Assembly: GCF_900172265.1 (NCBI RefSeq)
Contig: NZ_FWFK01000001.1
Location: forward strand, 1-64,000
Direction of reading: 5' to 3'
Source of the DNA: Roseivivax jejudonensis
GTDB taxonomy: Bacteria; Pseudomonadota; Alphaproteobacteria; Rhodobacterales; Rhodobacteraceae
Length of the DNA: 64,000 nucleotides
The number at the start of each line of letters is the position of its first letter. Position 1 is the stretch's first letter. A program made the position numbers and the translations under genes. Below, one piece after another: positions 26,442-63,928 of the stretch. The notes under the pieces were generated by a model, which saw only the letters and a list, made by a program, of their open reading frames with translations, was not told where the DNA came from and ran no database searches.

Positions 26442-27503
26442 ATGCGCGGCACGGCGCGACGCTTCCTGATCGACGGCGACGGCTACATGCCGTGGCGCGG
26501 CGTCGCGGCTGTCCTCCTGGCCGTGGTCGTGCCGGTGCTGCTGGCCGTCACGGTATTCGGCCCGGCGGGTGCAGCGGTGTTCATCGCCGCCTTGCCGGCA
26601 CACCTTGCCGCCAAGCAGGCGGGCATCTACGCGGCGACAGTGGTGACGATGGTCACCGCGATGGGCGGCGTGCTCGCGCTCGGTTCGCTCGAGATGTCGC
26701 TGCTCGTCGCGGCTTGCCTCGCCATCATCACCTCGATCGGGTTTCGCCACGGGCTCGCCACACCGTGCTTGCGCGCGCTGTTTACCTGGACGGTGTTCAC
26801 CGGGCCGATCCTGCCGGCAGACGAAAAGCCGCTGATCCTGCTTTTGTCCATCGCCGCGATCTTCTGGAGCGTCAGCGTGACATGGGCGATGGGCGAGGCC
26901 GCGGACGCCTCCGAAGAAGAAAGCTCCGGCCCGGAATTCTCCTTGCTGTTCGGGGCGATGCTGGGCGTCGGCCTCGTTCTGTCGGTCTATATAGGCGCGC
27001 GGTTTTTCGGCCCGCACGGATTCTGGTTCCCGCTGACCTTCGCCGTCCTCTGGATCCCTCCATTCGGCCAACTTTTCACGCGGACCGCGAAGCGGACGGC
27101 GGGCACCGTGGCAGGGGTGGCCTTGGCGATGGCGCTGGCCATTGGTGTGGAGTCGGAGGCCACGCGGGCCGCCATCGCTCTGGCGATCGTGCCGTTCGCT
27201 TTCCGCATCCTGCCGCGCAGCTACGCCGGGTTCACCGCACTCCTGACGATGATCGTGCTCGAAGCTCTGAGCCTCGTGTCGGATCTCGACGCGCTCGCGG
27301 TAGAGAGGATCTGGTCCATGCTCGCGGCTGCTCTGACCGCGGGACTGCTCGGGCTCCTGGCCTTCGCGATCCTGCGGCGCGTGGCGCCCGATGCGCTGGA
27401 CGAGCTCATGCAGCCAAGCGAGGACGACACGCGCGAGGAGGATGGTCCCAACGCGCAAGAGCCCCGCGCAGAGCCGCGGGGCCGGACACCTGAACCGACG
27501 TGA
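26442..27503 (+). CDS. FUSC-like multi-spanning membrane protein
   Basis: This 353-residue protein has about ten hydrophobic segments in two groups (near residues 18-140 and 165-315) separated by an acidic loop (GEAADASEEESSGPE), and an acidic hydrophilic tail. The two-bundle architecture and length fit the FUSC/aromatic-acid exporter-like family; similarity to DUF2955/FUSC_2 domains is my impression. It may export small organic acids, but no partner (HlyD-type adaptor) is nearby. It is convergent with gcrA. Confidence 0.6.
   Translation: MRGTARRFLIDGDGYMPWRGVAAVLLAVVVPVLLAVTVFGPAGAAVFIAALPAHLAAKQAGIYAATVVTMVTAMGGVLALGSLEMSLLVAACLAIITSIGFRHGLATPCLRALFTWTVFTGPILPADEKPLILLLSIAAIFWSVSVTWAMGEAADASEEESSGPEFSLLFGAMLGVGLVLSVYIGARFFGPHGFWFPLTFAVLWIPPFGQLFTRTAKRTAGTVAGVALAMALAIGVESEATRAAIALAIVPFAFRILPRSYAGFTALLTMIVLEALSLVSDLDALAVERIWSMLAAALTAGLLGLLAFAILRRVAPDALDELMQPSEDDTREEDGPNAQEPRAEPRGRTPEPT
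27461..27482. terminator. possible shared terminator hairpin inside the FUSC gene end
   Basis: GCCCCGCG (27461-27468) and CGCGGGGC (27475-27482) form an 8-bp stem with a 6-base loop. It overlaps the last codons of the FUSC-like gene and is 30 bases downstream of the convergent gcrA stop. Confidence 0.4.
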
Positions 27504-51348: not shown

Positions 51349-52287
51349 ATGGATGATCTGAAAATGCGTGTCGAAGCGCGACGCGCGCTCACCGAACACA
51401 TTTGCGAGTTCACCCTGAAGCCGGTCGAGGACGTGGAGCTTCCGAGCTTCGAGCCCGGCGCGCACGTGACCATCGAAACCCCGTCGGGCGCCATGCGCCG
51501 GTACTCGCTGGTAAACGACGGCAGCGCGCCGGAGGTCTACAAGATCGCGGTCAAGCGCGAGGCGGAGTCCCGCGGCGGCTCAGCGTCGATGCACGACGAG
51601 GCGACCGAGGGCAAAGAGCTGCGCGTCGAGGTGCCGGAGAACAGCTTTCCGCTGAAGGACGCGAAGGAATACCTGCTGATCGCCGGCGGCATCGGCGTCA
51701 CCCCGATCTACGCCATGGCGCAGCACCTCAAGCGTGAGGACAAGCCGTTCAACGTCATCTACTGCAGCCGCAGCGAAGCGGACACGGCCTATCTCGAGGA
51801 CATGCGCGAGGCGTTCGGCGACCGCCTGACCGTGCATCACGACAACGGCGATCCCGACGAGGTCTACGACTTCTGGGACCATTTCGAAGAGCCCCGGAAC
51901 ATGCGCGTCTATTGCTGCGGTCCGGAGCCGCTGATGGAAGAGATCGAGGCAATCTCGGGTCACTGGCCCGAGGGCCGCGTGAACTTCGAGGATTTCAAGC
52001 CCGTGGAAGTCGTCCGCGAGGACGACAAGGCTTTCGAGGTGACACTGGAGAAGTCTGGCAAGACCGTCACCGTGCCGGAGGATCGCTCGATCCTCGAGGC
52101 GCTGCGCGACGAAGGGGTGGCGACCGTCAGCTCTTGTGAAAGCGGCACCTGCGGCACCTGCAAGACCAAGCTGATCTCGGGCGATGTCGATCATCGCGAC
52201 ATGGTGCTGATGGATCACGAACAGGCGGATCACATCATGATCTGCGTGTCGCGCGCGAAGGACGGGGACCTGGTTCTTGACCTCTGA
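51349..52287 (+). CDS. oxygenase reductase component (FMN, NAD, 2Fe-2S; phthalate dioxygenase reductase type)
   Basis: Passes electrons from NADH to a Rieske oxygenase. It is 312 residues in the order FMN/NAD/plant-type ferredoxin: flavin motif RRYSL (residues 50-54), NAD motifs GGIGVTP (113-119) and CCGPEPL (189-195), and a C-terminal [2Fe-2S] domain with Cys263, Cys268, Cys271 and Cys299. This single-chain order is that of phthalate dioxygenase reductase and VanB. It is the first gene of the operon; the oxygenase partner is probably the gene at 62648, behind a matching operator. Confidence 0.92.
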   Translation: MDDLKMRVEARRALTEHICEFTLKPVEDVELPSFEPGAHVTIETPSGAMRRYSLVNDGSAPEVYKIAVKREAESRGGSASMHDEATEGKELRVEVPENSFPLKDAKEYLLIAGGIGVTPIYAMAQHLKREDKPFNVIYCSRSEADTAYLEDMREAFGDRLTVHHDNGDPDEVYDFWDHFEEPRNMRVYCCGPEPLMEEIEAISGHWPEGRVNFEDFKPVEVVREDDKAFEVTLEKSGKTVTVPEDRSILEALRDEGVATVSSCESGTCGTCKTKLISGDVDHRDMVLMDHEQADHIMICVSRAKDGDLVLDL

Positions 52288-53467
52288 TCCGATCCGGCTG
52301 GGTGTGGCCGGGCTGGGTCGAGCGTTCATGCTGATGCTGCCGACGTTCCGCGCCGATCCGCGCGTGCGCCTGGTCGCTGCCGCCGCGCCGCGGGAAGAGA
52401 GCCGGACGGCATTCGAGGCCGAGTTCGGGGGAACCGGGCACGCCAGCGTGGACGACCTGGCGGCCGACCCGGAGGTCGAGGCGATCTATGTGGCAACGCC
52501 CCACCAGATGCACGCCGATCATGTCGCCGCCGCGGCCCGCCACGGCAAGCACATCCTGGTGGACAAGCCGCTCGCAGTATCGCTCGAGGATGCCGACGCG
52601 ATGGTGGCGGCCGCGGAAACGGCGGGCGTCCACCTGATCGTCGGCCCGAGCCACAGCTTCGATGCACCGGTCGCGCTGGCACGCCGGATGATCGACAGCG
52701 GAGAGGTCGGCGCGGTGCGCATGGTGCAGGCGTTCAACTACACCGATTTCCTCTACCGCCCGCGTCGCCCCGAAGAGCTGCGCACCGAGGAAGGTGGTGG
52801 CGTGCTGTTCAGCCAGGGCGTGCACCAGATTGATATCGTGCGTCTTCTCTGCGGCGGCATGGCCAACAGGATCACCGCGATGACCGGCGCATGGGATCCC
52901 GCCCGACCGACCGAAGGCGCCTATGCCGCCCTGATGAGCTTCGAGGGCGGTGCGTTCGCAACCCTGACCTATTCCGGCTACGCGCATTTCGACAGCGACA
53001 TCTGGATGGACGACGTGGCCGAGCTTGGCGGTGAAAAGTCGCCTTCGAGCTACGGGAAGGCGCGGCGTGCACTCGAAGGCCTCGATGCCGAGGCCGAGGC
53101 GCGGCTCAAGACCACGCGCACCTACGGCGCGGGCTCCGAGCCGGCCAAGGCAGACCATCACGAGCATTTCGGTCCGATCATCGTGTCGTGCGACCGCGCG
53201 GACCTTCGGCTGACGCCGGACGGCGTGGAAGTCTTCGGCGATTTCGACCGCCGGTTCGTCGAGGCCCCGCTCGGCCCTGTGCCGCGCAAGACCGTGATCG
53301 ACGCGCTGCTCGCAGCGGTGCGCGAGGATGTCGCCCCGGCCCAGACCGGACGCTGGGGACGCGCGAGCCTGGAGGTCTGTCACGCGATCCTGCGCTCGGC
53401 CGAGACCGGCGCCGCGGTCGACCTGACACGCCAATGTGGAACGATCCAAGAGGAGGAGCACGCTTGA
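52277..53467 (+). CDS. Gfo/Idh/MocA oxidoreductase (dihydrodiol dehydrogenase candidate)
   Basis: This NAD(P)-dependent dehydrogenase has 396 residues. Rossmann start LGVAGLGRAF (residues 8-17), the DKPLA segment (96-100, variant of the EKP motif) and GGGVLFSQGVHQIDIV are family hallmarks. In phthalate degraders the cis-4,5-dihydrodiol dehydrogenase (Pht4) belongs to this family and has similar length, and here the gene lies between the reductase and a Pht5-like gene. A TTG start inside the end of the reductase gene was accepted because GGGGAC precedes it and the Rossmann strand begins eight residues on. Confidence 0.85.
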   Translation: MTSDPIRLGVAGLGRAFMLMLPTFRADPRVRLVAAAAPREESRTAFEAEFGGTGHASVDDLAADPEVEAIYVATPHQMHADHVAAAARHGKHILVDKPLAVSLEDADAMVAAAETAGVHLIVGPSHSFDAPVALARRMIDSGEVGAVRMVQAFNYTDFLYRPRRPEELRTEEGGGVLFSQGVHQIDIVRLLCGGMANRITAMTGAWDPARPTEGAYAALMSFEGGAFATLTYSGYAHFDSDIWMDDVAELGGEKSPSSYGKARRALEGLDAEAEARLKTTRTYGAGSEPAKADHHEHFGPIIVSCDRADLRLTPDGVEVFGDFDRRFVEAPLGPVPRKTVIDALLAAVREDVAPAQTGRWGRASLEVCHAILRSAETGAAVDLTRQCGTIQEEEHA

Positions 53468-54456
53468 CCGACCTGACACTCTCCATCGCGATGGGCAACT
53501 ACGACCGGACCCGCCCCATCGTCGACGGCCGCGTCAAGATCGACGGGGTGGATCCGGTGCCGATGCTCCTGTCGCCCGAGGAGATGTTCTTTCGCGCGTT
53601 CCGGCACCAGGCGTTCGACATCTCGGAATTGTCGCTGTCGTCCTACTCGATCTCGGTCGCGCGCGGAGAGCCGCACTACGTGGCCGTGCCCGTTTTTCTC
53701 AGCCGGGCGTTTCGCCATACATCGGTCTATATCCGCACCGACAAGGGCATCGAGCGTCCCGAAGACCTCAAAGGCAAGCGCATCGGCATCGCCGAGTACC
53801 AGCTTTCCGCCAATGTCTGGGTGCGCGGCATCCTCGAGGACGATTTCGGCGTGAAGCCCTCCGATGTCACGTGGGTGCGCGGCGGGATGGACACGCCCGG
53901 CCGTCCCGAGAAGATCAAGGTGGATCTGCCAGAGGACGTGACCGTCGAGGCCGCACCGGACGGAGCGACCCTGAACGGGATGCTCGAGGCCGGCGAGATC
54001 GACGGCTTCGTCGGCCCGCGCTGGCCGCGCTGCTTTGCCGAGGGGCATCCGCATGTCGGGCGGCTCTTCCGCGACAGCGTCGCCGCGGCCGAAGACTATT
54101 ACAGCCGGACGCAGATCTTCCCGATCATGCACGTTCTCGGCGTGCGCCGGACACTGGCCGAGGCGCATCCATGGCTGCCCGGCGCGCTTCTCAAAGCGTT
54201 TTCGGAGTCCAAGCATCTCGCCCAGGAGGCGTTGCAGGACACGTCCGCGACGAAGGTCACGATGCCCTTCGTGGAAGACAACCTGAACCGCGCGCAGGCA
54301 CTGATGGGGGCCGATCCGTGGACATACGGCGTCGCCCACAACGCCCACGTTCTCGATCGCTTCCTCGACTATCACCACGCGCAAGGCCTGTCGCCGCGCC
54401 GCGTGCAGGTCGACGAGCTGTTCCATCCGTCGACACACGAAGCCTACAGCCTTTGA
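53464..54456 (+). CDS. 4,5-dihydroxyphthalate decarboxylase-like protein
   Basis: This 330-residue protein resembles Pht5, which decarboxylates 4,5-dihydroxyphthalate to protocatechuate. The fold is that of NMT1-like binding proteins but there is no signal peptide, which fits a cytoplasmic enzyme. Visible segments: GNYDRTRPIVDGRV, HQAFDISELSLSSY, VFLSRAFRHTSVYIRT and FPIMHVLGVRR. The TTG start overlaps the previous stop (TTGA) and has GAGGAGG upstream. Relatives of this family with unknown substrates are frequent in Rhodobacterales, so the exact reaction is uncertain. Confidence 0.85.
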   Translation: MTDLTLSIAMGNYDRTRPIVDGRVKIDGVDPVPMLLSPEEMFFRAFRHQAFDISELSLSSYSISVARGEPHYVAVPVFLSRAFRHTSVYIRTDKGIERPEDLKGKRIGIAEYQLSANVWVRGILEDDFGVKPSDVTWVRGGMDTPGRPEKIKVDLPEDVTVEAAPDGATLNGMLEAGEIDGFVGPRWPRCFAEGHPHVGRLFRDSVAAAEDYYSRTQIFPIMHVLGVRRTLAEAHPWLPGALLKAFSESKHLAQEALQDTSATKVTMPFVEDNLNRAQALMGADPWTYGVAHNAHVLDRFLDYHHAQGLSPRRVQVDELFHPSTHEAYSL

Positions 54457-54466
54457 AGGAGGGACC

Positions 54467-54913
54467 ATGACCGACTTCACGCCAGGAGACATCGTCGAGA
54501 TCGAGACCGACAGCGGGAAGGCCTACGTCCAGGTCACGCACAATCATTCGAGCTACCCGCCGGTCGTGCGGGCGCTTGACGGTCTGCACGAGAGCCGCCC
54601 GGACGATCTGGAGGGGCTCGCCACCGGTGCGACGCGCTTCGTCGGGATGATCCCGCTCGGTAGCGCGCTGCAGAAGCTGGGCCGCACGTGCGAGGTCGTG
54701 GCGCATGTCGATGTTCCCGAGGACCAGAAGCCGTTCCCGACCTTCCGGATGCCGATCCGCGACAAGAAGGGCGAGATTGTCTACTGGTGGTTCTGGGACG
54801 GGCGCGGGCTCAGCTACGATGTCGAGTTGACCGAAGAGCAGAAGGCCCTGCCCCTCCGCGAAGTCATGAGCGGAGAGCGCTTCCTCGAACTTCTCGTGAA
54901 TCACGAGACGTGA
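54467..54913 (+). CDS. unrecognised 148-residue protein in the aromatic cluster
   Basis: I do not recognise this protein. It begins with an SH3-like beta motif (FTPGDIVEIETDSGKAYVQVTHNH), has an aromatic-rich centre (PTFRMPIRDKKGEIVYWWFWDG) and a helical C-terminus. There is no signal peptide or membrane helix. It starts ten bases after the decarboxylase-like gene behind GAAGGAGGG, so it is part of the operon. It could be a small accessory enzyme or an inhibitor/sensor; nothing in the sequence decides. Confidence 0.7.
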   Translation: MTDFTPGDIVEIETDSGKAYVQVTHNHSSYPPVVRALDGLHESRPDDLEGLATGATRFVGMIPLGSALQKLGRTCEVVAHVDVPEDQKPFPTFRMPIRDKKGEIVYWWFWDGRGLSYDVELTEEQKALPLREVMSGERFLELLVNHET

Positions 54914-55018
54914 TCCAGCGCCGGCCAGGCCGCCCCGGCGGCCGGGCCGGTCTCGCGCGCAAGTCGGCGCCACGGTCGACGGCGCGCCGCCGATGACCCC
55001 GATAGGGAGGAGACCCTC

Positions 55019-56500
55019 ATGGACCGCACCGATCCGGTCGATGTCGATGCAGCGCTTCCCGCGCATCGTGACATCTATTTCGGCGGAGGCTGGCACGCGC
55101 CGGTCTCTGGCACTTACGAGACCACGATGAACCCCGGAACCGGCGGCACGCTCGCGTCGGTCGCGGTAGCGGGGCAAGCCGATGTCGATGCCGCCGTTGC
55201 AACCGCGCGCAAGGGCTTTCTGGAATGGCGCGATGTGGCGCCGCTCGAACGGTCCCGCATCCTCAAGGAGATCGCCGCACGCCTGCGTGCGCATGGCGAC
55301 GAGCTCGCGATGATCGACGCCGCCAATTGCGGCAATCCCTACACCGAGATGCGCGGAGACGCGACGATCGCGGCGGCGCAGATGGAGTTCTTTGCCGGCC
55401 TTGTGACCGAGATGAAGGGCGACACTATCCCGATGGGGCCCGAGCGGGTCAACATGACCGCACGCGAGCCGATGGGCGTCGTCGCGCGCATCCTCGCGTT
55501 TAACCATCCGTTCATGTTCTGCGGCGGAAAGATGGCCGCGCCTCTTGCCGCCGGCAACTCGGTCATCATCAAACCGCCTGTCCAGGCGCCGCTTTCCGCG
55601 CTGCGCCTCGCCGAGCTGGTGGACGGTCTCCTTCCCGATGGCGTGTTCAATGTCCTGCCCGGGGGGACGGAGGCCGGCGCCGCGCTCGCCGAGCACAAGG
55701 ACGTGGCCAAGGTCACGCTGATCGGCTCGGTCGCGGCGGGCAAGGCTGTCATGCGCAGCGCCAGCGACACGCTGAAGCCCGTACTGCTCGAACTGGGGGG
55801 CAAGAACGCGCTGATCGGGTATCCCGACAGCGACCCCGCACGCGTCGCCGACGCCATCGTGGCCGGCATGAACTTCGGGTGGTGCGGTCAGTCCTGCGGA
55901 TCGACGAGCCGCGCCTTCCTGCACGAGGACATCCACGACGCGGTCGTGGAGCGGCTGGCCGAGAGCGTCTCGCGGTATCGCCCCGGCGTGCCGACCGATC
56001 CCGCGACCACGATGGGCGCGCTCGTGTCCCGCGAGCATTTCTCCAAGGTCATGGGTTATATCGAGAGCGGCAAGTCCGAAGGGGCCCGCATCGTCGCGGG
56101 CGGGCACGCCGTGACCGACGGACCGCTTGCGGACGGCTGCTTCATCGCGCCGACCATCTTTGCCGATGTCACTCCCGACATGACCATCGCGCGGGAGGAG
56201 ATCTTCGGCCCGGTCTTGGCCGTGCGGCGCTGGTCCGACGAGGCGGCCATGCTGGAGGAAGTGAACGGGCTCGATGTCGGGCTGACCTGCGCGATCTGGA
56301 GCCGCGACCTTGCCACCGCGCACCGCGCGGCAAACAGGGTCGAGGTCGGGTTCGTCTGGATCAACGAGGTGGGCCGGCACTTCCTCGGAGCGCCCTTCGG
56401 CGGGGTGAAGCAATCCGGGATTGGCCGGGAGGAGGGTATCGGAGAGCTGCTGTCCTTCACCCACGAGAAGAACATCCACATCAACCTGGCCGGCCAGTGA
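55019..56500 (+). CDS. aldehyde dehydrogenase (NAD(P)+)
   Basis: This oxidises an aldehyde to the acid. It is 493 residues of the classical ALDH superfamily: Asn162 in FNHPF, Glu258 in LLELGGKNA, catalytic Cys293 in CGQSCGSTSRAF, and FGPVLAVRRW near the C-terminus. The residue after the expected catalytic GQ(x)C is unusual: SCGSTS where GQVC is common. Start after GGGAGGAGAC. It precedes a benzoylformate-decarboxylase-like gene; together they could convert an arylglyoxylate to an aromatic acid. Confidence 0.92.
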   Translation: MDRTDPVDVDAALPAHRDIYFGGGWHAPVSGTYETTMNPGTGGTLASVAVAGQADVDAAVATARKGFLEWRDVAPLERSRILKEIAARLRAHGDELAMIDAANCGNPYTEMRGDATIAAAQMEFFAGLVTEMKGDTIPMGPERVNMTAREPMGVVARILAFNHPFMFCGGKMAAPLAAGNSVIIKPPVQAPLSALRLAELVDGLLPDGVFNVLPGGTEAGAALAEHKDVAKVTLIGSVAAGKAVMRSASDTLKPVLLELGGKNALIGYPDSDPARVADAIVAGMNFGWCGQSCGSTSRAFLHEDIHDAVVERLAESVSRYRPGVPTDPATTMGALVSREHFSKVMGYIESGKSEGARIVAGGHAVTDGPLADGCFIAPTIFADVTPDMTIAREEIFGPVLAVRRWSDEAAMLEEVNGLDVGLTCAIWSRDLATAHRAANRVEVGFVWINEVGRHFLGAPFGGVKQSGIGREEGIGELLSFTHEKNIHINLAGQ

Positions 56501-56526
56501 GCCGCGACACGTCGGAGGAAGCCCAC

Positions 56527-58278
56527 ATGCGCGACGACATCGACCGTCCCGTGCCCCACGAGCCCACGGAGCACTACGGCAGCGACGCCATCGCCGACAT
56601 GATGCAGCGGTTGGGCACCCCCTATGTCGCGCTCAATCCCGGATCGAGCTTTCGCGGCCTGCACGACAGCCTCGTGAACCATCTCGGCAATCGCGATCCT
56701 CAGATGCTGCTGTGCCTGCACGAAGAGCACGCGGTCGCCATCGCGCACGGCTGGGCCAAGGTCACCGAAACGCCGCTCGCTGTGATCCTGCACGCGAATG
56801 TCGGCCTGATGCATGCGGCGATGGCCCTCTACAACGCGTGGTGCGACCGGGTGCCGATGATGGTTTACGGCGCCACGGGGCCCGTGGACGCGGCAAAGCG
56901 CAGGCCGTGGATCGATTGGCTGCACACGTCGCGCGATCAGGCGGCGGTCGTGCGTCCCTACGTGAAGTGGGACGACCAGCCGGCATCGCTTCAGGCGTCC
57001 CTCGCCGCGATGATGCGTGCCGCGACCATCACGGCCACGCCGCCGATGGCGCCCACCTATGTCTGTTTCGACGTGACCGTGCAGGAAGAGAAGCTGACGG
57101 CGCCCGCCGCCCTTCCTGCCCCCGATCGCCACGCGGTGCCCCGACTGCCCGAGCCGTCGGATCGCGATGTGCGCGAGGTCCTGGACCTGCTCGAGGGCGC
57201 GACCGCCCCGGTCTTTCTCATGGGCCGCGTTTCGCGTGACCAGGCCGCATGGGACCGGCGCGTCGCGCTGGCCGAACACTTCGGCGCGCGGGTCGTGACC
57301 GACATCAAGACCGCCGCGGCTTTCCCGACACGGCACCCGCTTCATGCCGGGGCACCGGGATATTTCCTGTCGCCCGAAGCCGGCGAGGTCATCGCTGCGG
57401 CCGACCTGGTCGTTTCGTTCGACTGGGTCGATCCCGCGGGCACCTTGGCTCAGGCCGGCCTCGACATCAGCGCCGCGCGCGTCGTCAACGTGACACCCGA
57501 GCCGTTGATGCAGAACGGCTGGTCGCTCGATCATCAGGCGATGCCGCCCTCGGACCTCACGCTTCTGACCACACCCGACACGCTCATCGCGGCGCTTTGC
57601 GCCGAAGCGGGTATCGGCGCACCGGAAAGCCGGGCGACCGCCGCAGAACCGTCGCCCCCTGCGCCTTCGGCGAGGATGTCGATCGACACGCTGGCCGACG
57701 TGCTGTCGGACGCGCTGACCGACGAGGCCACGACCTACCTGCGCCTGACGCTGAGCTGGAACGGCGCCAAATGCGACTTTGCCGGACCCCTCGACTACCT
57801 CGGCTACGATGGCGGCGCGGGGATCGGCTCCGGGCCCGGCATGGCGGTCGGCTCGGCACTGGCGCTGCGCGGCAGCGGGCGCCTGCCCGTGGCGGTGCTC
57901 GGCGACGGCGACTTCCTGATGGGCGCCACCGCGCTCTGGACGGCGACCCATCACCGCGTTCCGATGCTGATCGTCGTCGCCAACAATCGCTCGTATTTCA
58001 ACGACGAGGTTCACCAGGAACGGGTCGCGCGCGACCGCGGTCGCCCGGTCGAGAACAAGCATGTGGGTCAGGCAATCGATGCGCCCGACATCGACATCGC
58101 CGGCATGGCCCGCTCGCAGGGCGCGACCGCCTTCGGCCCGGTCGAGACACCGGACGAGGCGCGACGTGTGCTTTCCGACGCGATCGCGGCGGTCCATGCC
58201 GGCGAAACGGTCGTCGTCGACATGCGGATCCAGCGCGGTTACAGCGACGCCATGGCCGAAGGCATGACGCAGGAGTAA
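56527..58278 (+). CDS. ThDP-dependent decarboxylase (benzoylformate decarboxylase-like)
   Basis: This 583-residue ThDP enzyme has catalytic Glu66/67 in CLHEEHAVAIAHGWAK, and the ThDP/Mg motif GDGDFLMG (about residue 459) ending NNRSYF. PYVKWDDQPASLQASLAAMMRAA resembles the VKWxxxPAS region of benzoylformate decarboxylases. A 2-keto acid decarboxylase next to an aldehyde dehydrogenase is the mandelate-pathway combination (keto acid to aldehyde to acid). An acetolactate-synthase-like carboligase is the alternative. Start after CGGAGGAAG, 26 bases from the ALDH stop. Confidence 0.85.
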   Translation: MRDDIDRPVPHEPTEHYGSDAIADMMQRLGTPYVALNPGSSFRGLHDSLVNHLGNRDPQMLLCLHEEHAVAIAHGWAKVTETPLAVILHANVGLMHAAMALYNAWCDRVPMMVYGATGPVDAAKRRPWIDWLHTSRDQAAVVRPYVKWDDQPASLQASLAAMMRAATITATPPMAPTYVCFDVTVQEEKLTAPAALPAPDRHAVPRLPEPSDRDVREVLDLLEGATAPVFLMGRVSRDQAAWDRRVALAEHFGARVVTDIKTAAAFPTRHPLHAGAPGYFLSPEAGEVIAAADLVVSFDWVDPAGTLAQAGLDISAARVVNVTPEPLMQNGWSLDHQAMPPSDLTLLTTPDTLIAALCAEAGIGAPESRATAAEPSPPAPSARMSIDTLADVLSDALTDEATTYLRLTLSWNGAKCDFAGPLDYLGYDGGAGIGSGPGMAVGSALALRGSGRLPVAVLGDGDFLMGATALWTATHHRVPMLIVVANNRSYFNDEVHQERVARDRGRPVENKHVGQAIDAPDIDIAGMARSQGATAFGPVETPDEARRVLSDAIAAVHAGETVVVDMRIQRGYSDAMAEGMTQE

Positions 58279-58369
58279 TAGGCATGCTCCGCAAGATCGG
58301 GGCCCGTCAACCGCGTCGATTTGGAACGAGACAGTTCGTCAACTTGCCCCTGCGCCGTTTGATGTCCAA

Positions 58370-58382
58370 ATTGCACTGCAAT
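58370..58382. promoter_or_regulatory. palindrome before the marR-type gene
   Basis: ATTGC-ACT-GCAAT is a perfect 5-bp inverted repeat 25 bases upstream of the chosen regulator start. It does not match the TTAG-N4-CTAA core, so it may serve another regulator or be a chance palindrome. Confidence 0.35.
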
Positions 58383-58407
58383 CGACATGACGCGGAATGG
58401 AACCGGG

Positions 58408-58935
58408 ATGGCGGACGGGACAACCAGGTCGACCGATCGGACCGAGGAGATCTACGAAGAAGAGCGTATTGCTCGCCTCATCCGCTTGGCGGCACGATCG
58501 TTCAACCGGTCCTTGCAGATGCGGCTCACGAGCGAGGGCGTCACGTTCGGCCAGTGGATTTTTCTTCGGATCCTGTGGCGAAGTGACGGCCTGTCGCAGC
58601 GCGAATTGAGCGAGCGGGCGCACCTGACCGAACCGACGGCGCACACGGCGCTGCAACGGATGGAGGAACTCGGCTTCATCACGCGGCGGAAGGTCGGCAA
58701 CAACAAGCGACGGCAGCACGCGTTCCTGACCGAGAAGGGTTGGGCGCTGCGCGACCGGCTCGAACCGCTGGCGGTCGAGGTCAACGATCTCGCCCTCGAT
58801 GGCCTCGACGAGTCCGAAGAAACCGTCTTGCGGCGCGCGCTGAGCGTGATCATCCGCAATCTCGAGCGCGACGAGAAAGACGCGGCAGCGCGCGGACTTC
58901 GCGTGCCCGCAACGCGGTCGCTCCCCAACATCTGA
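58408..58935 (+). CDS. MarR-family transcriptional regulator
   Basis: This is a probable repressor of the surrounding catabolic genes, 175 residues. The winged helix-turn-helix is at about residues 45-110: FGQWIFLRILWRSDGLSQRELSERAHLTEPTAHTALQRMEELGFITRRKVGNNKRRQHAFLT, flanked by the dimerisation helices. GGAA lies five bases before the ATG at 58408; the ATG at 58387 would add seven residues and lacks a ribosome binding site. SlyA-type operators stand before three units of the cluster. The ligand would be an aromatic acid or its CoA ester by analogy. Confidence 0.88.
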   Translation: MADGTTRSTDRTEEIYEEERIARLIRLAARSFNRSLQMRLTSEGVTFGQWIFLRILWRSDGLSQRELSERAHLTEPTAHTALQRMEELGFITRRKVGNNKRRQHAFLTEKGWALRDRLEPLAVEVNDLALDGLDESEETVLRRALSVIIRNLERDEKDAAARGLRVPATRSLPNI

Positions 58936-59045
58936 GACAGCACGGACCGGTCTGTCAGAGCGGTCTGACAGGTCGATTGTAAGCCTCGCTGCGGTCGGTT
59001 GACGCTGCGGCGAAAAAGTCCGTGATCGTCTGTATCCCCCCAGAA

Positions 59046-59061
59046 AATAAGATTTCTAATT
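59046..59061. promoter_or_regulatory. degenerate SlyA/MarR-type site upstream of the TRAP promoter
   Basis: AATAAG-ATTT-CTAATT has near-perfect arms (one mismatch) and a CTAA right half. It lies just before the -35 hexamer of the TRAP operon. Confidence 0.4.
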
Positions 59062-59063
59062 AT

Positions 59064-59092
59064 TTGACCCGATCCGGCAGCGCCACTAAAAA
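59064..59092 (+). promoter_or_regulatory. promoter of the TAXI-TRAP operon
   Basis: TTGACC (59064-59069), 17 bases, TAAAAA (59087-59092), giving a start near 59099 inside the site at 59091-59106. Confidence 0.55.
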
Positions 59093-59106
59093 GTAGATGT
59101 CTAAGT
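59091..59106. promoter_or_regulatory. SlyA/MarR-type operator 2 (degenerate)
   Basis: AAGTAG-ATGT-CTAAGT keeps the TAG-N4-CTAAGT part of operators 1 and 3 with two mismatches in the left arm. It covers the predicted transcription start of the TRAP operon. Confidence 0.5.
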
Positions 59107-59197
59107 TTTTCGGTGGCTCCCCGGCCTCGGGAAGACAAGCGACGATCAAGCGACGCCCGCCCCAGTGGCGGGTGGTAGTGAAACTGGGAGGTACATC

Positions 59198-60181
59198 ATG
59201 AAAATGTCAGCAATGGCCGCGGTTGTCGGCCTCGCATTCACGTCGTCGGCCGCGTTCGCGGACCCCGTCAATCTCACCCTGTCGGGCGGCAACCCGGGCG
59301 GGCTCTGGTCGCTGCTGGGCGCCGGCATCGACCGCGCGGTAAAGGCAGATGACGGTGATTCCGTTGTCACCTACCAAGCGACCGGTGGCGGTTTCGCCAA
59401 TATCGGCCTGCTGGGCGGCAACCGCACGGATCTCGGCCTGCTGCACGACGCAGAAGCGCAGATCGCGCTCGAGGGCGGAGAGCCGTTCCAGGGACCGATC
59501 GAGAACATGCGGGCCATCGGCTACATGTACAACTGGGCGCCGATGCACTTCTTCCTCGATCGCGGGATGGCCGAGGAATATGGCATCGAGAGCCTGGCCG
59601 ACATCGCCGACAGCGGCGCGCCGATCCGGGTCGGGATCAACCGCTCCGGCAACATCACCTCCAACGTCGCGCTCGCCATGCTCGAGCAAGTCGGTGTGAC
59701 CGAGGAATCGCTTCAGGAGATGGGCGGCCAGTTCGTCCGCGCCGGCGCGAACGAGCAGGCAGACCTGATCCAGGATGGCCGGCTCGACATGATCACCAAC
59801 GGCATCTTCATCAACCACTCCTCGTTCCGGTCGGTCGATGAAAACAGCGACGTGGTTCTTCTGAGCGTCCCCGAGGAGGTGGTGACGGCAACGAACGAAC
59901 AGTTCGGCACAGGCACGATGACCATTCCGGCCGACAGCTACTCGAACCAGAGCGAGGACATCTCGACCGTTGCTCTCGGCGCGCTTCTCGTCGCAACCGA
60001 AGGCATGGACGAGGAAACCGCGCATTCGCTCGCGCAATCGCTCGTCACCAACATCGACGAGGTGCGGGCCGTCCACAGCTCCATGAAGCAGCTCGACCCG
60101 GAACTCCTGGCCACGCCCAGCGTGCTCGAGTTCCACCCCGGCGCAGCACGCGCCTATGAAGAGGCGGGGCTGATCAATTGA
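59198..60181 (+). CDS. TAXI-family TRAP transporter solute receptor
   Basis: This periplasmic receptor of a tripartite importer has 327 residues with a signal peptide ending AFA-DPV (residue 21). The TAXI family start is clear: LSGGNPGGLWSLLGAGIDRAV, then GGGFANIGLLGGNRTDLGL. Start after TGGGAGGTACATC. It is coupled to the fused permease gene by a TTGA overlap. Substrates of the few studied TAXI systems are organic acids; from context an aromatic acid is likely here. Confidence 0.93.
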   Translation: MKMSAMAAVVGLAFTSSAAFADPVNLTLSGGNPGGLWSLLGAGIDRAVKADDGDSVVTYQATGGGFANIGLLGGNRTDLGLLHDAEAQIALEGGEPFQGPIENMRAIGYMYNWAPMHFFLDRGMAEEYGIESLADIADSGAPIRVGINRSGNITSNVALAMLEQVGVTEESLQEMGGQFVRAGANEQADLIQDGRLDMITNGIFINHSSFRSVDENSDVVLLSVPEEVVTATNEQFGTGTMTIPADSYSNQSEDISTVALGALLVATEGMDEETAHSLAQSLVTNIDEVRAVHSSMKQLDPELLATPSVLEFHPGAARAYEEAGLIN

Positions 60182-62082
60182 TCGGATCCCTTGTCGCCAC
60201 CGGCCGCAGGCGAAAGCTTGCGGCAGGTTTGCAGCGCGCCCTGATCGTGGTCGCCGCTCTGTTCGCGGCCTGGGTGATCTATGCAAACCTGTTCACGATC
60301 TCGGATCCCCTGATCCTGGGCATCCTGTTCGTCTGCGGCATCTACACGATCATGTTCGTCGCGATCGGGGCGACCCCGAACGCGACGGACGAGATCCCGT
60401 TCTACGACTGGGCGCTGTCTCTTCTGAGCCTCGCCTGCGGGATCTACTTTTTCGTCAACGCCGGCGCGATCGCGGATCGGATCAGCCTGCTGAACCCGTT
60501 CACACCGGCGCAGCTGTTCTTCGGCAGTTCGCTGCTGCTGCTCACGCTGGAGGCCACGCGCCGCACCACCGGCATGGGCCTGACGGGCGTTGTCGTGCTG
60601 TTCCTGCTGTACAACCAGTTCGGATACCTGCTGCCGCCGCCGTTCGGACATGGTGTCGATGACTACACCTACCTGCTCGATATCCTCGTCTTCACGACGG
60701 ACGGCGTGTTCGGTGTGCCGATCCAGGTCGTCGCGAGCTACGTGTTCCTCTTCGTCATGTTTGGCACCTTCCTGTCGAAGGCCGGCGGGGGCGAGTTCTT
60801 CTTCAACGTCGCGGCCCTGCTGACCGGCCGGACGCGCGGCGGGCCGGCCAAGATCGCGGTTCTGTCCTCGGGCCTCTACGGCACGATGTCCGGCAGCCCG
60901 ACCTCGGATGTCGTCGCCACCGGGTCGATCACGATCCCGGTGATGAAACGGCTGGGCTACAAGGCACGCTTTGCCGCGGCCGTCGAGGTCGCCGCCTCCA
61001 CTGGCGGCAGCGCGATGCCCCCGATCATGGGCTCCGCGGCCTTCATCCTCGCCGAATACACCGGCGTCGCCTATCAGCAGGTCGTCCTCGCGGCGCTGTT
61101 CCCTGCCCTGCTCTACTATCTGGGCGTCTTCGCGCAGGTGCACTTCCGGGCGGTGAACAACGATCTGCGCCCCTCGGACGACGACATCCCCACCGCGGCC
61201 GAGACGTTCAAGACGGGCTGGGTCTTCCTGATCCCGATCGTCGGCATCGTCGTGGCGCTGGTCGTCGGCTACTCTCCGACCTTCGTCGCGGGGATCGGCG
61301 TTCTGGGCGCGGTCGTGGCCTCCATGCTTCTCAAGGCGACGCGCCTGAGCCCGTGGCAGATCGTCGAGGGTCTGGGCGAGACGACGCTGCGCATCCTGCC
61401 GGTGGCGGGTGCCTGCGCCGCGGCCGGCCTTGTGATCGGCGGGCTGTCCATGACCGGCCTCGGAATGAAGGCGGCCAATGTCATCCTCACGATCAGCAAC
61501 GCCCAACCGGCGGTCACGCTGCTGATCGCGGCCGTGGTCACGATTATCCTCGGCCTCGGGATGCCCACGCCCAGCGCCTACATCCTGGCGGCTGTTCTCG
61601 TCGGGCCGGCTCTGGCGGAGCTCGGCTTTCCGATCCTGCAAAGCCACATGTTCCTGCTCTACTTCGCGATCCTGTCGGCGCTGACGCCGCCGATCGCGGT
61701 CGCCGCGCTCGCGGCCGCCGCAATCGCGGATGAGGATCCGTTCAAGATCGCGTTTTCGGCAGTACGTCTGGCAGCCATCGGTTTCCTTCTGCCGTTCGCC
61801 TTCGTCGTGAACCCCGGGCTGATCCTGCAGGCGGACCCGTTCACCAACGGCCTCGCGATCCTCGGCGGCATTCTCGCCACGGGGGCCATCGCCATGTCGA
61901 TCGAGGGAGCGGTCGGGATCTCGCTGCGCAGTGCAGAGCGCTTGATCCTCACCTTGGCTGCCGTCGCTGCGGTGATGCCGTTCACACTCGTGGCGCTTGG
62001 CGGGATCGCGGTGATCTGCGCGATCATGGCGCGCTACTTCATCAAGGTGAAGGGCACGCAGGCACCGGACATCGCCGGATGA
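60178..62082 (+). CDS. TRAP transporter fused permease (DctQ-DctM type)
   Basis: This sodium-driven inner-membrane transporter component has 634 residues and about 16-18 helices. The N-terminal ~150 residues are the four-helix DctQ-like part and the rest is the DctM domain, as usual for TAXI systems. Recognisable segments: SGSPTSDVVATGSITIPVMKRLGY, EVAASTGGSAMPPIMGSAAF and LGLGMPTPSAYILAAVL. The TTG start overlaps the receptor stop (TTGA). A hairpin terminator follows at 62099. Confidence 0.92.
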   Translation: MIGSLVATGRRRKLAAGLQRALIVVAALFAAWVIYANLFTISDPLILGILFVCGIYTIMFVAIGATPNATDEIPFYDWALSLLSLACGIYFFVNAGAIADRISLLNPFTPAQLFFGSSLLLLTLEATRRTTGMGLTGVVVLFLLYNQFGYLLPPPFGHGVDDYTYLLDILVFTTDGVFGVPIQVVASYVFLFVMFGTFLSKAGGGEFFFNVAALLTGRTRGGPAKIAVLSSGLYGTMSGSPTSDVVATGSITIPVMKRLGYKARFAAAVEVAASTGGSAMPPIMGSAAFILAEYTGVAYQQVVLAALFPALLYYLGVFAQVHFRAVNNDLRPSDDDIPTAAETFKTGWVFLIPIVGIVVALVVGYSPTFVAGIGVLGAVVASMLLKATRLSPWQIVEGLGETTLRILPVAGACAAAGLVIGGLSMTGLGMKAANVILTISNAQPAVTLLIAAVVTIILGLGMPTPSAYILAAVLVGPALAELGFPILQSHMFLLYFAILSALTPPIAVAALAAAAIADEDPFKIAFSAVRLAAIGFLLPFAFVVNPGLILQADPFTNGLAILGGILATGAIAMSIEGAVGISLRSAERLILTLAAVAAVMPFTLVALGGIAVICAIMARYFIKVKGTQAPDIAG

Positions 62083-62098
62083 CCTGCTACATCCTCGT

Positions 62099-62120
62099 GG
62101 GGCGCCATCGTCGGCGCCCC
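62099..62120 (+). terminator. terminator after the TRAP permease
   Basis: GGGGCGCC and GGCGCCCC form an 8-bp stem with a 6-base loop, 16 bases after the permease stop. Confidence 0.65.
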
Positions 62121-62259
62121 GCATCTTCCGGCCCCGGAACACGCGGCAGAGATGCGTGCGATGCACCGCCGAAGGTGCCGTGCAACGCGTCGGCGGGGCC
62201 CTGCAACATGGATCGCGACGACATCGCGTTATCGAACAGAACTGACATGGAGGGTCACA

Positions 62260-62499
62260 TTGCCCGACACAGCCGGCGATCATCCACGCCAACATCCGTC
62301 CTTCTGGAAGCGTTGGACCGTGGCCATGATCGCAGTCTATCCCCCGCTGGTGGCCCTGGTGTATCTGTCGCAAAGCGTGCTGCAGGGCGTGCCGACCCCG
62401 GCATCGCTGTTTATCATCGCGCTGTGCCTGACCGGCCTGTCGACCGGACTCATCCTGCCGTTCCTGAACCGCCGACTTGCCGGCTGGCTGCACCGCTAG
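62260..62499 (+). CDS. small two-helix membrane protein
   Basis: This 79-residue protein starts at a TTG five bases after GGAGGG. A hydrophilic N-terminus (about 25 residues, with HPSFWKRW) is followed by two transmembrane helices (about residues 28-46 and 52-72) and a basic end (NRRLAGWLHR). No family recognised. It lies between the TRAP terminator and the oxygenase promoter; it may belong to transport or be unrelated. Confidence 0.55.
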   Translation: MPDTAGDHPRQHPSFWKRWTVAMIAVYPPLVALVYLSQSVLQGVPTPASLFIIALCLTGLSTGLILPFLNRRLAGWLHR

Positions 62500-62579
62500 C
62501 CAAGAGGGTCGGGAACCGCATCCTCGGCCCCGCGATCAATCGACAGGCGAGATCGTGACCCCAGCCAGCAAGCCTGAGC

Positions 62580-62607
62580 TTGACTCAACTTCTTAGATAC
62601 CTAAGAC
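62580..62607 (+). promoter_or_regulatory. promoter of the Rieske oxygenase gene
   Basis: TTGACT (62580-62585) is followed after 16 bases by TAAGAC (62602-62607), a weak -10. The palindrome at 62591-62606 fills the spacer, the same design as at 51260-51289. Confidence 0.45.
62591..62606. promoter_or_regulatory. SlyA/MarR-type operator 3
   Basis: TCTTAG-ATAC-CTAAGA has perfect 6-bp arms and the TTAG-N4-CTAA core. It lies 42 bases before the oxygenase start. Confidence 0.75.
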
Positions 62608-62647
62608 TAATCACAGATCCGAATGCCCTATTCCGGAGGAAAATTCG

Positions 62648-63928
62648 ATGCTCACGTATGAGGAAAACGAGCTGCTGACCCGCGTTAGCGGCGATGCGCC
62701 GATGGCGCAGCTGATGCGCCAGCATTGGACCCCTGTCTGCCTGATCGAGGAAGTGGCAGAGCCGGACTGCAACCCGCTGCGCGTCGAAGTCCTCGGTGAA
62801 AGCTACGTCGCGTTCCGTGACTCCGACGGGCGCCTGGGCATGCTCGACGAGCTTTGCCCACACCGCAAGGCGTCGCTCGTCTACGGGCGCAACGAGGATT
62901 GCGGCCTGCGCTGCCTCTACCACGGCTGGAAGATGGACGTGGACGGCAACGTCGTCGCGATGTCATCCGAGCCCGAGGGCAGCCCGCTGATGGACAAGGT
63001 GAAGGCACGCGCCTACCCGGTGCGCGAATGGGGCGGTTTCGTCTGGGCATGGCTCGGCGATCCCGAAGAAGTCCCCGAGTTCCAGCCCCCCGCCTTCGCA
63101 CCCGAAGAGGACACGCCCGTTTCGATCCTCAAGATCCGCGTTCCGGCCAACTGGGCGCAGATCCACGAGGGCCAGATCGACAGCGCGCACAGCTCGTCGC
63201 TGCACTCCTCGACGATGAAACCGGCCAAGGTCGAAGGCGCCGCGTCGGACGACAAGTCCTGGTATCGGCCGTCGACCGACAAGTCGCCGAAGATGCAGAC
63301 GGAAACCACGAGCTACGGCTTCCACTACGCGGCGATCCGCAAGCCGATCAAGAACGCGAAGACCCACCACTACCTTCGGATCACCGAATTCGTGGCGCCC
63401 TACTACTCGCTGATCCCGCCGAACAACAACTACAAGGTCGCGAGCGTCATCGTTCCGATCAACGACGATGAATCCGCCTTCCACTTCATTGCGTGGGGCG
63501 GGCCCAACGTCCCGTCGACCGAGGAGTGGCGCAGCTTCAACCACGCCGTTCCCGGCGAGGACGTCGATCACAAGTGGCGCACGAAGCGGACGCTCGAGAA
63601 CGACTTCATGCAAGACCGCGAGGCCATGAAGGAAGGACACTTCACCGGCGTTCCGGGCATCCCGAACGAGGACATCATCATGTGGGTCTCGATGGGAAGC
63701 CGCGTCCAGCGCCATACGGACACGCTCGGCGCGTCCGACCTCGCAATCGTCGAGTTTCGCCGCCTCATGGTGGACGCGGCGAAGAAGGTTCAGGACGGCG
63801 GCCGCGCGATCGGGACGGACTCGGACATTCCGCAGGCCCGGATCGCCTCGCACGAAGGCGTCTACTCCAAGGACGTCGACTGGCGCACGCTGGTGGCGCC
63901 AAGCTCGGCGTCGCAAGCGGCGGAGTAA
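62648..63928 (+). CDS. Rieske aromatic ring-hydroxylating oxygenase, alpha subunit (phthalate 4,5-dioxygenase-like)
   Basis: Inserts oxygen into an aromatic ring with electrons from a separate reductase. It is 426 residues. The Rieske [2Fe-2S] ligands are Cys70-His72 and Cys89-His92 (CPH...CLYH). The mononuclear-iron region NWAQIHEGQIDSAHSSSLH gives Glu174, Asp178, His181 and His186. The IDSAHSSSLH form and length match the phthalate 4,5-dioxygenase group, which uses a one-component reductase like that at 51349. Start after CCGGAGGAA. No beta subunit, as expected for this group. Confidence 0.93.
   Translation: MLTYEENELLTRVSGDAPMAQLMRQHWTPVCLIEEVAEPDCNPLRVEVLGESYVAFRDSDGRLGMLDELCPHRKASLVYGRNEDCGLRCLYHGWKMDVDGNVVAMSSEPEGSPLMDKVKARAYPVREWGGFVWAWLGDPEEVPEFQPPAFAPEEDTPVSILKIRVPANWAQIHEGQIDSAHSSSLHSSTMKPAKVEGAASDDKSWYRPSTDKSPKMQTETTSYGFHYAAIRKPIKNAKTHHYLRITEFVAPYYSLIPPNNNYKVASVIVPINDDESAFHFIAWGGPNVPSTEEWRSFNHAVPGEDVDHKWRTKRTLENDFMQDREAMKEGHFTGVPGIPNEDIIMWVSMGSRVQRHTDTLGASDLAIVEFRRLMVDAAKKVQDGGRAIGTDSDIPQARIASHEGVYSKDVDWRTLVAPSSASQAAE

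Follow-up and report, generated by a model that had tools for sequence, protein, structure and literature searches.

The 64,000-nucleotide stretch of Roseivivax jejudonensis DNA analyzed here (hereafter the window; positions 1-64000 of contig C6, the genome amounting to 4.31 Mb on 21 contigs) ends in a gene cluster that is probably an operon for ortho-carboxylated aromatic acids. We propose that it leads from 2-carboxybenzoylformate (phthalonate) through 2-carboxybenzaldehyde and phthalate to protocatechuate; for the first two enzymes, the substrate is inferred from comparison with related loci. Briefly, a TAXI-type TRAP importer would take up phthalate and probably phthalonate, a thiamine diphosphate (ThDP)-dependent enzyme would decarboxylate phthalonate to 2-carboxybenzaldehyde, and an aldehyde dehydrogenase (ALDH) would oxidize this aldehyde to phthalate. 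Phthalate would then be dihydroxylated at C4 and C5 by Pht3 and Pht2, rearomatized by Pht4 and decarboxylated by Pht5 to protocatechuate, whose ring would be opened by PcaGH, encoded elsewhere in the genome. The scheme would resemble the mandelate pathway in its logic, but with substrates that bear an ortho carboxylate.

A first-pass annotation, made from the sequence alone, had described a set of phthalate (pht) genes, a keto-acid decarboxylase, an ALDH and a TAXI-TRAP importer at 51349-63928, and this gene set held up. All of the named enzyme and transport genes are open frames on the + strand, their proteins have Pfam matches of the expected type (the weakest being that of the Pht5-like protein, NMT1, 1.8e-6), and their order is kept in relatives. 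Three members of the cluster had been missed: a gene for a 148-aa protein, a MarR-family regulator and an ABM-like gene just beyond the window. The cluster comprises the following features:

51349..52287, +, Pht2/OphA1-like FMN/2Fe-2S phthalate dioxygenase reductase (phmmer against 2pia, E 1.3e-88)
52277..53467, +, putative Pht4-like Gfo/Idh/MocA dehydrogenase (PF01408, 2.5e-24; by family and position)
53464..54456, +, Pht5-like 4,5-dihydroxyphthalate decarboxylase (9jp7, E 5.2e-135; start inferred from an annotated Roseivivax coding sequence, searches having used 53473)
54467..54913, +, 148-aa protein without assigned function, kept beside Pht5
55019..56500, +, ALDH, proposed 2-carboxybenzaldehyde dehydrogenase (PF00171, 5e-145)
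56527..58278, +, ThDP-dependent decarboxylase of the benzoylformate decarboxylase type, proposed 2-carboxybenzoylformate decarboxylase (sequence and fold matches)
58387..58935, +, MarR-family regulator (PF12802/PF01047)
59165..60181, +, TAXI-type solute-binding protein (TIGR02122, above cut-off)
60178..62082, +, fused TRAP permease, DctQM (TIGR02123, above cut-off)
62648..63928, +, Pht3/OphA2-like phthalate 4,5-dioxygenase oxygenase, Rieske/LigXa_C (7fjl/7v25/7v28, E 2.6e-170)
C6:64011-64640, just right of the window, 209-aa ABM-like protein (antibiotic biosynthesis monooxygenase in the annotation of relatives)

The genes to the right of the ABM-like gene are unrelated. The same eleven genes occur in the same order in a same-genus genome (64-93% identity) and on a Roseivivax marinus plasmid (76-96% identity), and the cluster is therefore not a chance grouping.

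The lower pathway

By the orthology of Pht2, Pht3 and Pht5, the lower part of the pathway would follow the phthalate 4,5 route. The top match of the Rieske oxygenase was the phthalate dioxygenase of Comamonas testosteroni KF1 (E 2.6e-170; next match, 2.6e-60), and 243 of 417 aligned columns (58%) are identical to 7fjl. The KF1 enzyme (PDO_KF1) holds phthalate with S182, R207 and R244, two of which are reported to be replaced in isophthalate dioxygenase (PMC12445078). All three residues are present in the window oxygenase; isophthalate is thus disfavored as its substrate, as S182 and R207 are those that isophthalate dioxygenase is reported to lack (PMC12445078). The reductase matched the phthalate dioxygenase reductase 2pia far ahead of its next match (7.1e-56), and the Pht5-like protein is identical to the solved 4,5-dihydroxyphthalate decarboxylase 9jp7 at 196 of 327 columns (60%). 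The Gfo/Idh/MocA gene adjoins the reductase, oxygenase and Pht5 genes in most pht loci, and its family and position make its product a putative Pht4. Of the four Pht names that the first-pass annotation had given, Pht2, Pht3 and Pht5 are thus backed by structure-linked matches, and Pht4 by family and position.

Like the pht/oph clusters of Burkholderia, Pseudomonas and Comamonas, the cluster encodes an oxygenase, a reductase and a decarboxylase that match solved enzymes, together with a dehydrogenase of the same family. We know of no ThDP/ALDH front end in the 4,5-pathway clusters of these genera. Genes for protocatechuate cleavage, which the first-pass annotation had proposed to look for to the right of the window, are absent from the 16 kb on that side. 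Instead, adjacent pcaH and pcaG genes for protocatechuate 3,4-dioxygenase, both above their equivalog cut-offs, lie on contig C9. In some relatives (Sulfitobacter faviae, Phaeobacter and Roseomonas), pca genes lie within or near the pht cluster.

The ThDP enzyme and its partner genes

By sequence, the best solved matches of the ThDP enzyme are benzoylformate decarboxylases (BFDs). We compared its AlphaFold model (mean pLDDT 83, with blocks of 52-71 around residues 121-140 and 491-520) with solved structures using Foldseek, which gave 461 matches at E <=0.001; every one of the best 50 was a BFD, a 4-hydroxybenzoylformate decarboxylase or an engineered variant of BFD. Identity to BFD-type structures over the fold alignment is 20-24%. 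In an alignment of 99 subfamily members from three kinds of neighborhood (96 different sequences), E66 and H89 were found in 99/99. These correspond to the catalytic residues E47 and H70 of BFD, His70 being the key residue in decarboxylation. Also invariant in all 99 were R125, R126, P127, H133, T134, N492, D493, H496 and Q497. The phenyl pocket of BFD is presumably formed by A460, L461 and F464; extrapolating the alignment a few residues past its end places N492, D493 and H496 at these positions. The modeled pocket would therefore be polar, apparently more so than that of BFD, a character that fits a ring bearing a charge. Taken together, the ThDP enzyme looks BFD-like in its working, though the curated score does not file it as a BFD.

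Among the 99 proteins, the pht-linked members cluster on a tree (8 changes against a shuffled mean of 30.8), and they do not form one clade; the tree was built by a quick method and has two long branches flagged. Comparing pht-linked with unlinked members at 34 positions revealed no clear distinguishing residue. Window S40, which aligns with BFD S26, is Ser in 31/39 pht-linked members, 1/11 members linked to Pht5 only and 14/49 others, a difference from which we made no substrate call. Position 406 is His in 10/11 of the Pht5-only members.

To place the ThDP gene in its genomic setting, we took as ThDP loci the best 80 of 581 confirmed stretches in species genomes, found with nine ThDP queries that were all pht-linked and so bias the linkage counts upward. 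With thresholds of at least 52% identity for Pht3-like oxygenases, at least 55% for Pht5 and at least 40% for PhtC-like aldolases, these genes were found at 27/80, 27/80 and 7/80 loci, respectively, and any of them at 43/80. Either Pht3 or Pht5 was present at 37 of the 80, in 23 gene-order strings, some of which differ just by where the stretch was cut. These 37 loci, which span Alpha- and Betaproteobacteria and include those of Pelagimonas phthalicica DSM 26923 and Salipiger bermudensis HTCC2601, carry an ALDH in 27 cases, a MarR relative in 26 and a TAXI/TRAP relative in 14. A class-wide sample of 385 genomes that includes the window's own gives a fairer figure for linkage: 29/385 have the ThDP gene (E <=1e-60) and 14/385 have Pht5 at 62% identity or above, and among these 14 the ThDP gene lies within ~5 kb of Pht5 in 4 (window genome included) and elsewhere in 2. 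Among 37 plasmid records with Pht5 at 60% or above, the ThDP gene is present as well in at least 21, of which many are near-copies from Phaeobacter.

The ThDP gene also occurs with other arrangements of the lower genes. At 10/80 loci Pht5 lies near it and the stretch lacks a Pht3 (ALDH is present at 4 of them), and at one such locus an ABC importer and its binding protein stand between the two genes. In Agrobacterium and Neorhizobium, whose clusters we count as one because their aldolases are 99% identical, the ThDP and ALDH genes accompany those for an ABC importer, a class II aldolase and an FAD enzyme of the phenol-2-monooxygenase type. Among NCBIfam models, this aldolase best fits that of the 3,4-dihydroxyphthalate decarboxylase PhtC, scoring 79-81 bits where the cut-off is 200. 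Two unrelated types of dihydroxyphthalate decarboxylase thus stand beside the ThDP/ALDH pair, which suggests that the pair makes phthalate-type acids.

We then compared 29 Pht5-bearing loci, namely those of 13 of the 14 Pht5 genomes in the class sample (the window's own left out), the same-genus genome and 15/37 plasmid records; 20 plasmid records, many of them near-copies, and two Phaeobacter plasmids with broken genes were set aside. ALDH was found at 14/16 ThDP-positive loci and 0/13 ThDP-negative loci (Fisher 1.8e-6). A 2-hydroxyacid oxidase of the mandelate/lactate-dehydrogenase type was found at 5/16 and 0/13, respectively (Fisher 0.048). The ALDH, oxidase and dehydrogenase queries came from ThDP-positive loci, such that unrelated ALDHs at ThDP-less loci would escape; at three annotated ThDP-less plasmid loci, ALDH is not among the listed genes. 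Within the ThDP-less set, one stretch is just 6.8 kb and one has no visible oxygenase; four of the 13 come from one genus, and dropping three of these left the ALDH association at p = 1.2e-5. By these locus counts, the ThDP and ALDH genes are co-inherited. The window ALDH is 79-80% identical to the ALDHs of the Phaeobacter and Marinibacterium pht clusters and 52% identical to that of the Thalassospira lucentensis cluster.

Two Phaeobacter plasmids, P88 (P. inhibens) and G2 (Phaeobacter sp.), indicate that the front end behaves as a module. In both, frame changes or stops have disrupted each of the ALDH, ThDP, 2-hydroxyacid dehydrogenase and oxidase genes, all four of which are intact in P. gallaeciensis P75, and nine others are intact (NadC, MarR, TAXI, TRAP, Rieske, reductase, Gfo, Pht5 and the 148-aa gene); the single stop in the Gfo match is the natural end at residue 391, as in the Thioclava gene. 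The chance of exactly this broken quartet among 13 genes would be 1 in 715 if all were equally breakable, and the two plasmids represent one lineage, their DNA being 99.5% identical. The front-end quartet therefore decayed jointly, and the phthalate genes are left standing on their own.

In some relatives the front end is longer, with an (S)-2-hydroxyacid oxidase-like enzyme and a D-2-hydroxyacid dehydrogenase-like enzyme that would start from 2-carboxymandelate. The dehydrogenase gene comes after the ThDP gene in Phaeobacter, Thioclava and Salipiger, and the Phaeobacter oxidase matched the solved (S)-mandelate dehydrogenase at 4e-93, with L-lactate oxidase ahead at 5.5e-98.

The parallel with the Pseudomonas putida mandelate pathway (MdlB, MdlC and MdlD) is that a 2-hydroxyacid is turned into a 2-oxoacid, which is decarboxylated by a ThDP enzyme to an aldehyde that is then oxidized. 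The window ThDP enzyme shares with MdlC the BFD fold and E47/H70, but belongs to a distant subfamily. The two systems also differ in that an ortho-carboxylated product would pass to pht genes here and the product passes to benzoate genes there, and in that a hydroxyacid oxidase is encoded in some relatives only and not in the window cluster.

Weighing the substrate of the front end

The first-pass annotation had suggested that the ThDP enzyme and ALDH handle a 2-keto aromatic acid such as 2-carboxybenzoylformate, and the comparisons above favor this as the likely substrate. Several observations weigh on the other side, beginning with the upward bias of our linkage counts. The ThDP protein scored 158.8 bits against a cut-off of 493 for the NCBIfam benzoylformate decarboxylase model NF005485. 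The position of BFD Ser26 is Ala in 53/99 subfamily members, and BFD His281 is not kept, the aligned position being Gly305. The modeled polar pocket would fit other substrates too, and confidence in the model is low around R125-H133 and 490-520 (block pLDDT 52-71). The best curated and solved relatives of the ALDH are betaine aldehyde dehydrogenases, below cut-off. As for the hydroxyacid genes, the oxidase has L-lactate dehydrogenase as its best NCBIfam model, below cut-off, and L-lactate oxidase as its best solved match; the dehydrogenase reaches no NCBIfam cut-off; and the window cluster has neither gene, the sole strong FMN_dh match in its genome lying on another contig and being 37% identical to the Phaeobacter oxidase. 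Even with weaker Pht5-like genes included, 36/80 ThDP loci have no phthalate gene in the stretch (9 of the 36 being shorter than 10 kb), and 12 of the 36 carry an ALDH; because of these 36 loci, the subfamily may act on several arylglyoxylates. Finally, we know of no natural source of phthalonate.

In the chief rival, the ThDP enzyme and ALDH act on another arylglyoxylate (an unsubstituted, hydroxylated or otherwise substituted benzoylformate), the resulting acid reaches protocatechuate separately, and the operon is shared as one aromatic-acid regulon. Besides the loci without phthalate genes, it draws support from the pocket and catalytic positions that we compared, at which pht-linked and unlinked ThDP enzymes agree almost throughout (position 40 excepted), and from some ThDP/ALDH loci that lack a Rieske gene and encode an FAD enzyme of the phenol-2-monooxygenase type. 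We nevertheless consider it unlikely, at perhaps one chance in several, given that the ThDP gene sits inside or next to pht genes in a wide range of arrangements, that ALDHs of these types are missing from the 13 ThDP-less pht loci, and that the extra decarboxylase of the Agrobacterium/Neorhizobium cluster resembles, below cut-off, the dihydroxyphthalate decarboxylase PhtC.

A second rival concerns what has already been described. Clusters of phdK-pht2345 with MarR and TRAP genes are reported from Thalassospira, Roseovarius indicus and Rhodobium orientis, and Thalassospira sp. GO-4 is reported to grow on 2-carboxybenzaldehyde (PMC9604089). The window cluster has in common with these the pht2345 genes (pht4 putatively), an ALDH of ~492 aa, MarR and TRAP genes and the predicted course from 2-carboxybenzaldehyde to protocatechuate; it differs from them, as they are described, in its ThDP gene and in an ALDH just 52% identical to that of T. 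lucentensis. The window cluster could thus be a phthalate/2-carboxybenzaldehyde cluster of the Thalassospira type, with the ALDH as PhdK and the ThDP gene a hitchhiker or part of another pathway. Consistent with this, the words thiamine, benzoylformate and mandelate are absent from the main text of PMC9604089, which mentions no ThDP enzyme. However, we found the ThDP gene beside the pht cluster in Rhodobium orientis DSM 11290, a strain named in PMC9604089, and on a T. lucentensis plasmid, and may therefore be dealing with a gene overlooked in the published Thalassospira-type clusters. The presence of ALDH also tracks that of ThDP, and both decayed jointly in one Phaeobacter lineage; together these observations make the hitchhiker explanation improbable.

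That the ThDP protein is instead a carboligase or lyase acting on a non-aromatic 2-oxo acid or acyl-CoA, as its low identity to BFD-type structures, its polar pocket and the lack of conservation of BFD Ser26 and His281 across the subfamily might suggest, is very improbable, since no acetolactate synthases or CoA lyases occur among the best 50 of its 461 fold matches, and His89, the counterpart of the key decarboxylation residue His70 of BFD, is found in 99/99.

The first-pass annotation had also held that no described pathway combines these genes with a TAXI-TRAP importer. This needs narrowing: the pht, ALDH, MarR and TRAP genes are published together (PMC9604089), as is TAXI-TRAP uptake of o-phthalate (PMC13040137), and the combination of pht, ALDH, MarR and TAXI-TRAP genes is of an already described kind. 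As far as we have searched, what is new to the pathway is the ThDP enzyme and, in some relatives, its accompanying oxidases. Among the open-access papers listed in our searches, none describes bacterial phthalonate or carboxymandelate catabolism, or such a pathway with a BFD or mandelate dehydrogenase associated with phthalate.

Beyond the phthalonate operon itself, we tentatively raise a wider possibility, to which we give somewhat less than even weight: a plasmid-spread carboxymandelate pathway for which 2-carboxymandelate and phthalonate are overlooked natural growth substrates. Uptake would be by TAXI-TRAP, ABC or TTT importers; a dedicated ThDP subfamily (RRPxxxxxHT, NDxxHQ) and its partner ALDH would lead to phthalates; and unrelated lower modules (Rieske/Pht5, or FAD monooxygenase/PhtC-like) would lead on to protocatechuate. 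Phthalonate and 2-carboxymandelate are expected from the oxidation of naphthalene-type molecules. If the proposed front end holds, phthalate clusters, of which many are plasmid-borne in marine bacteria, would own a front end for oxidized ortho-carboxyl aromatics such as phthalonate and 2-carboxymandelate and be useful beyond plasticizers, and a large ThDP subfamily, for the most part annotated just as "thiamine pyrophosphate-binding protein", would gain a specific role. Strains with intact and with naturally broken copies of the front end exist, so the reading is readily testable; the P88 and G2 plasmids offer a ready natural control for growth comparison.

Importer, regulator and neighboring observations

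The TAXI solute-binding protein and fused permease sit inside the phthalate gene cluster, matching the layout of o-phthalate TAXI-TRAP systems. Such uptake is reported from denitrifiers, including Aromatoleum aromaticum EbN1 (Sanz 2020, as cited in the review PMC13040137), and the TAXI-TRAP genes opaL/opaN from the phthalate cluster of Pseudomonas PTH10 (PMC6362003). The window shares with these a TAXI protein and a fused permease beside phthalate genes and differs in that its importer would serve the aerobic 4,5-dioxygenase route. The window TAXI protein is 41% identical to one near UbiD, UbiX and CoA-transferase genes on plasmid 2 of EbN1. The importer would take up phthalate and probably also 2-carboxybenzoylformate. 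The MarR protein probably regulates the operon.

The 148-aa protein has no Pfam or NCBIfam match. Eight relatives share 41-66% identity with it, and FPTF, PIR and YWW are invariant across the 9 aligned members. Its AlphaFold model (pLDDT 91) gave a best PDB match at E 0.21, with none below E 0.2. The gene adjoins Pht5 in many pht clusters, including one without ThDP. At 62296-62496, in the gap between the TRAP permease and Rieske genes, lies a short stretch similar to the last 67 residues of the ABM-like protein (49%); in relatives the equivalent stretch is annotated as a small hypothetical protein.

The same genome holds further relatives of the cluster's enzymes. A Pht5-like gene 44% identical to the window's lies at C6:85612-86583, ~22 kb beyond the window's right end, and the 20-kb stretch that holds it contains no further pht relative. 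Contig C18:80000-142000 forms another aromatic island. Its genes include one for a Rieske oxygenase that shares 36% identity with that of the window, a pair of ThDP paralogs (49% and 36%), three Pht5-like genes (29-43%) and cupin, RraA-like, amidohydrolase and TctC/TctA genes.

In many relatives, nadC, encoding quinolinate phosphoribosyltransferase (QPRT), lies in or near the pht cluster; the window cluster has none. Because phthalate is reported to bind human QPRT about as tightly as quinolinate (Kd ~5 uM; PMC4726147), the cluster-linked nadC may be a phthalate-tolerant spare copy. On the Thioclava nitratireducens plasmid, from a snail-gill isolate, 27180-27392 at the end of the record was tagged by resistance prediction as a piece of a BKC-1 beta-lactamase gene.

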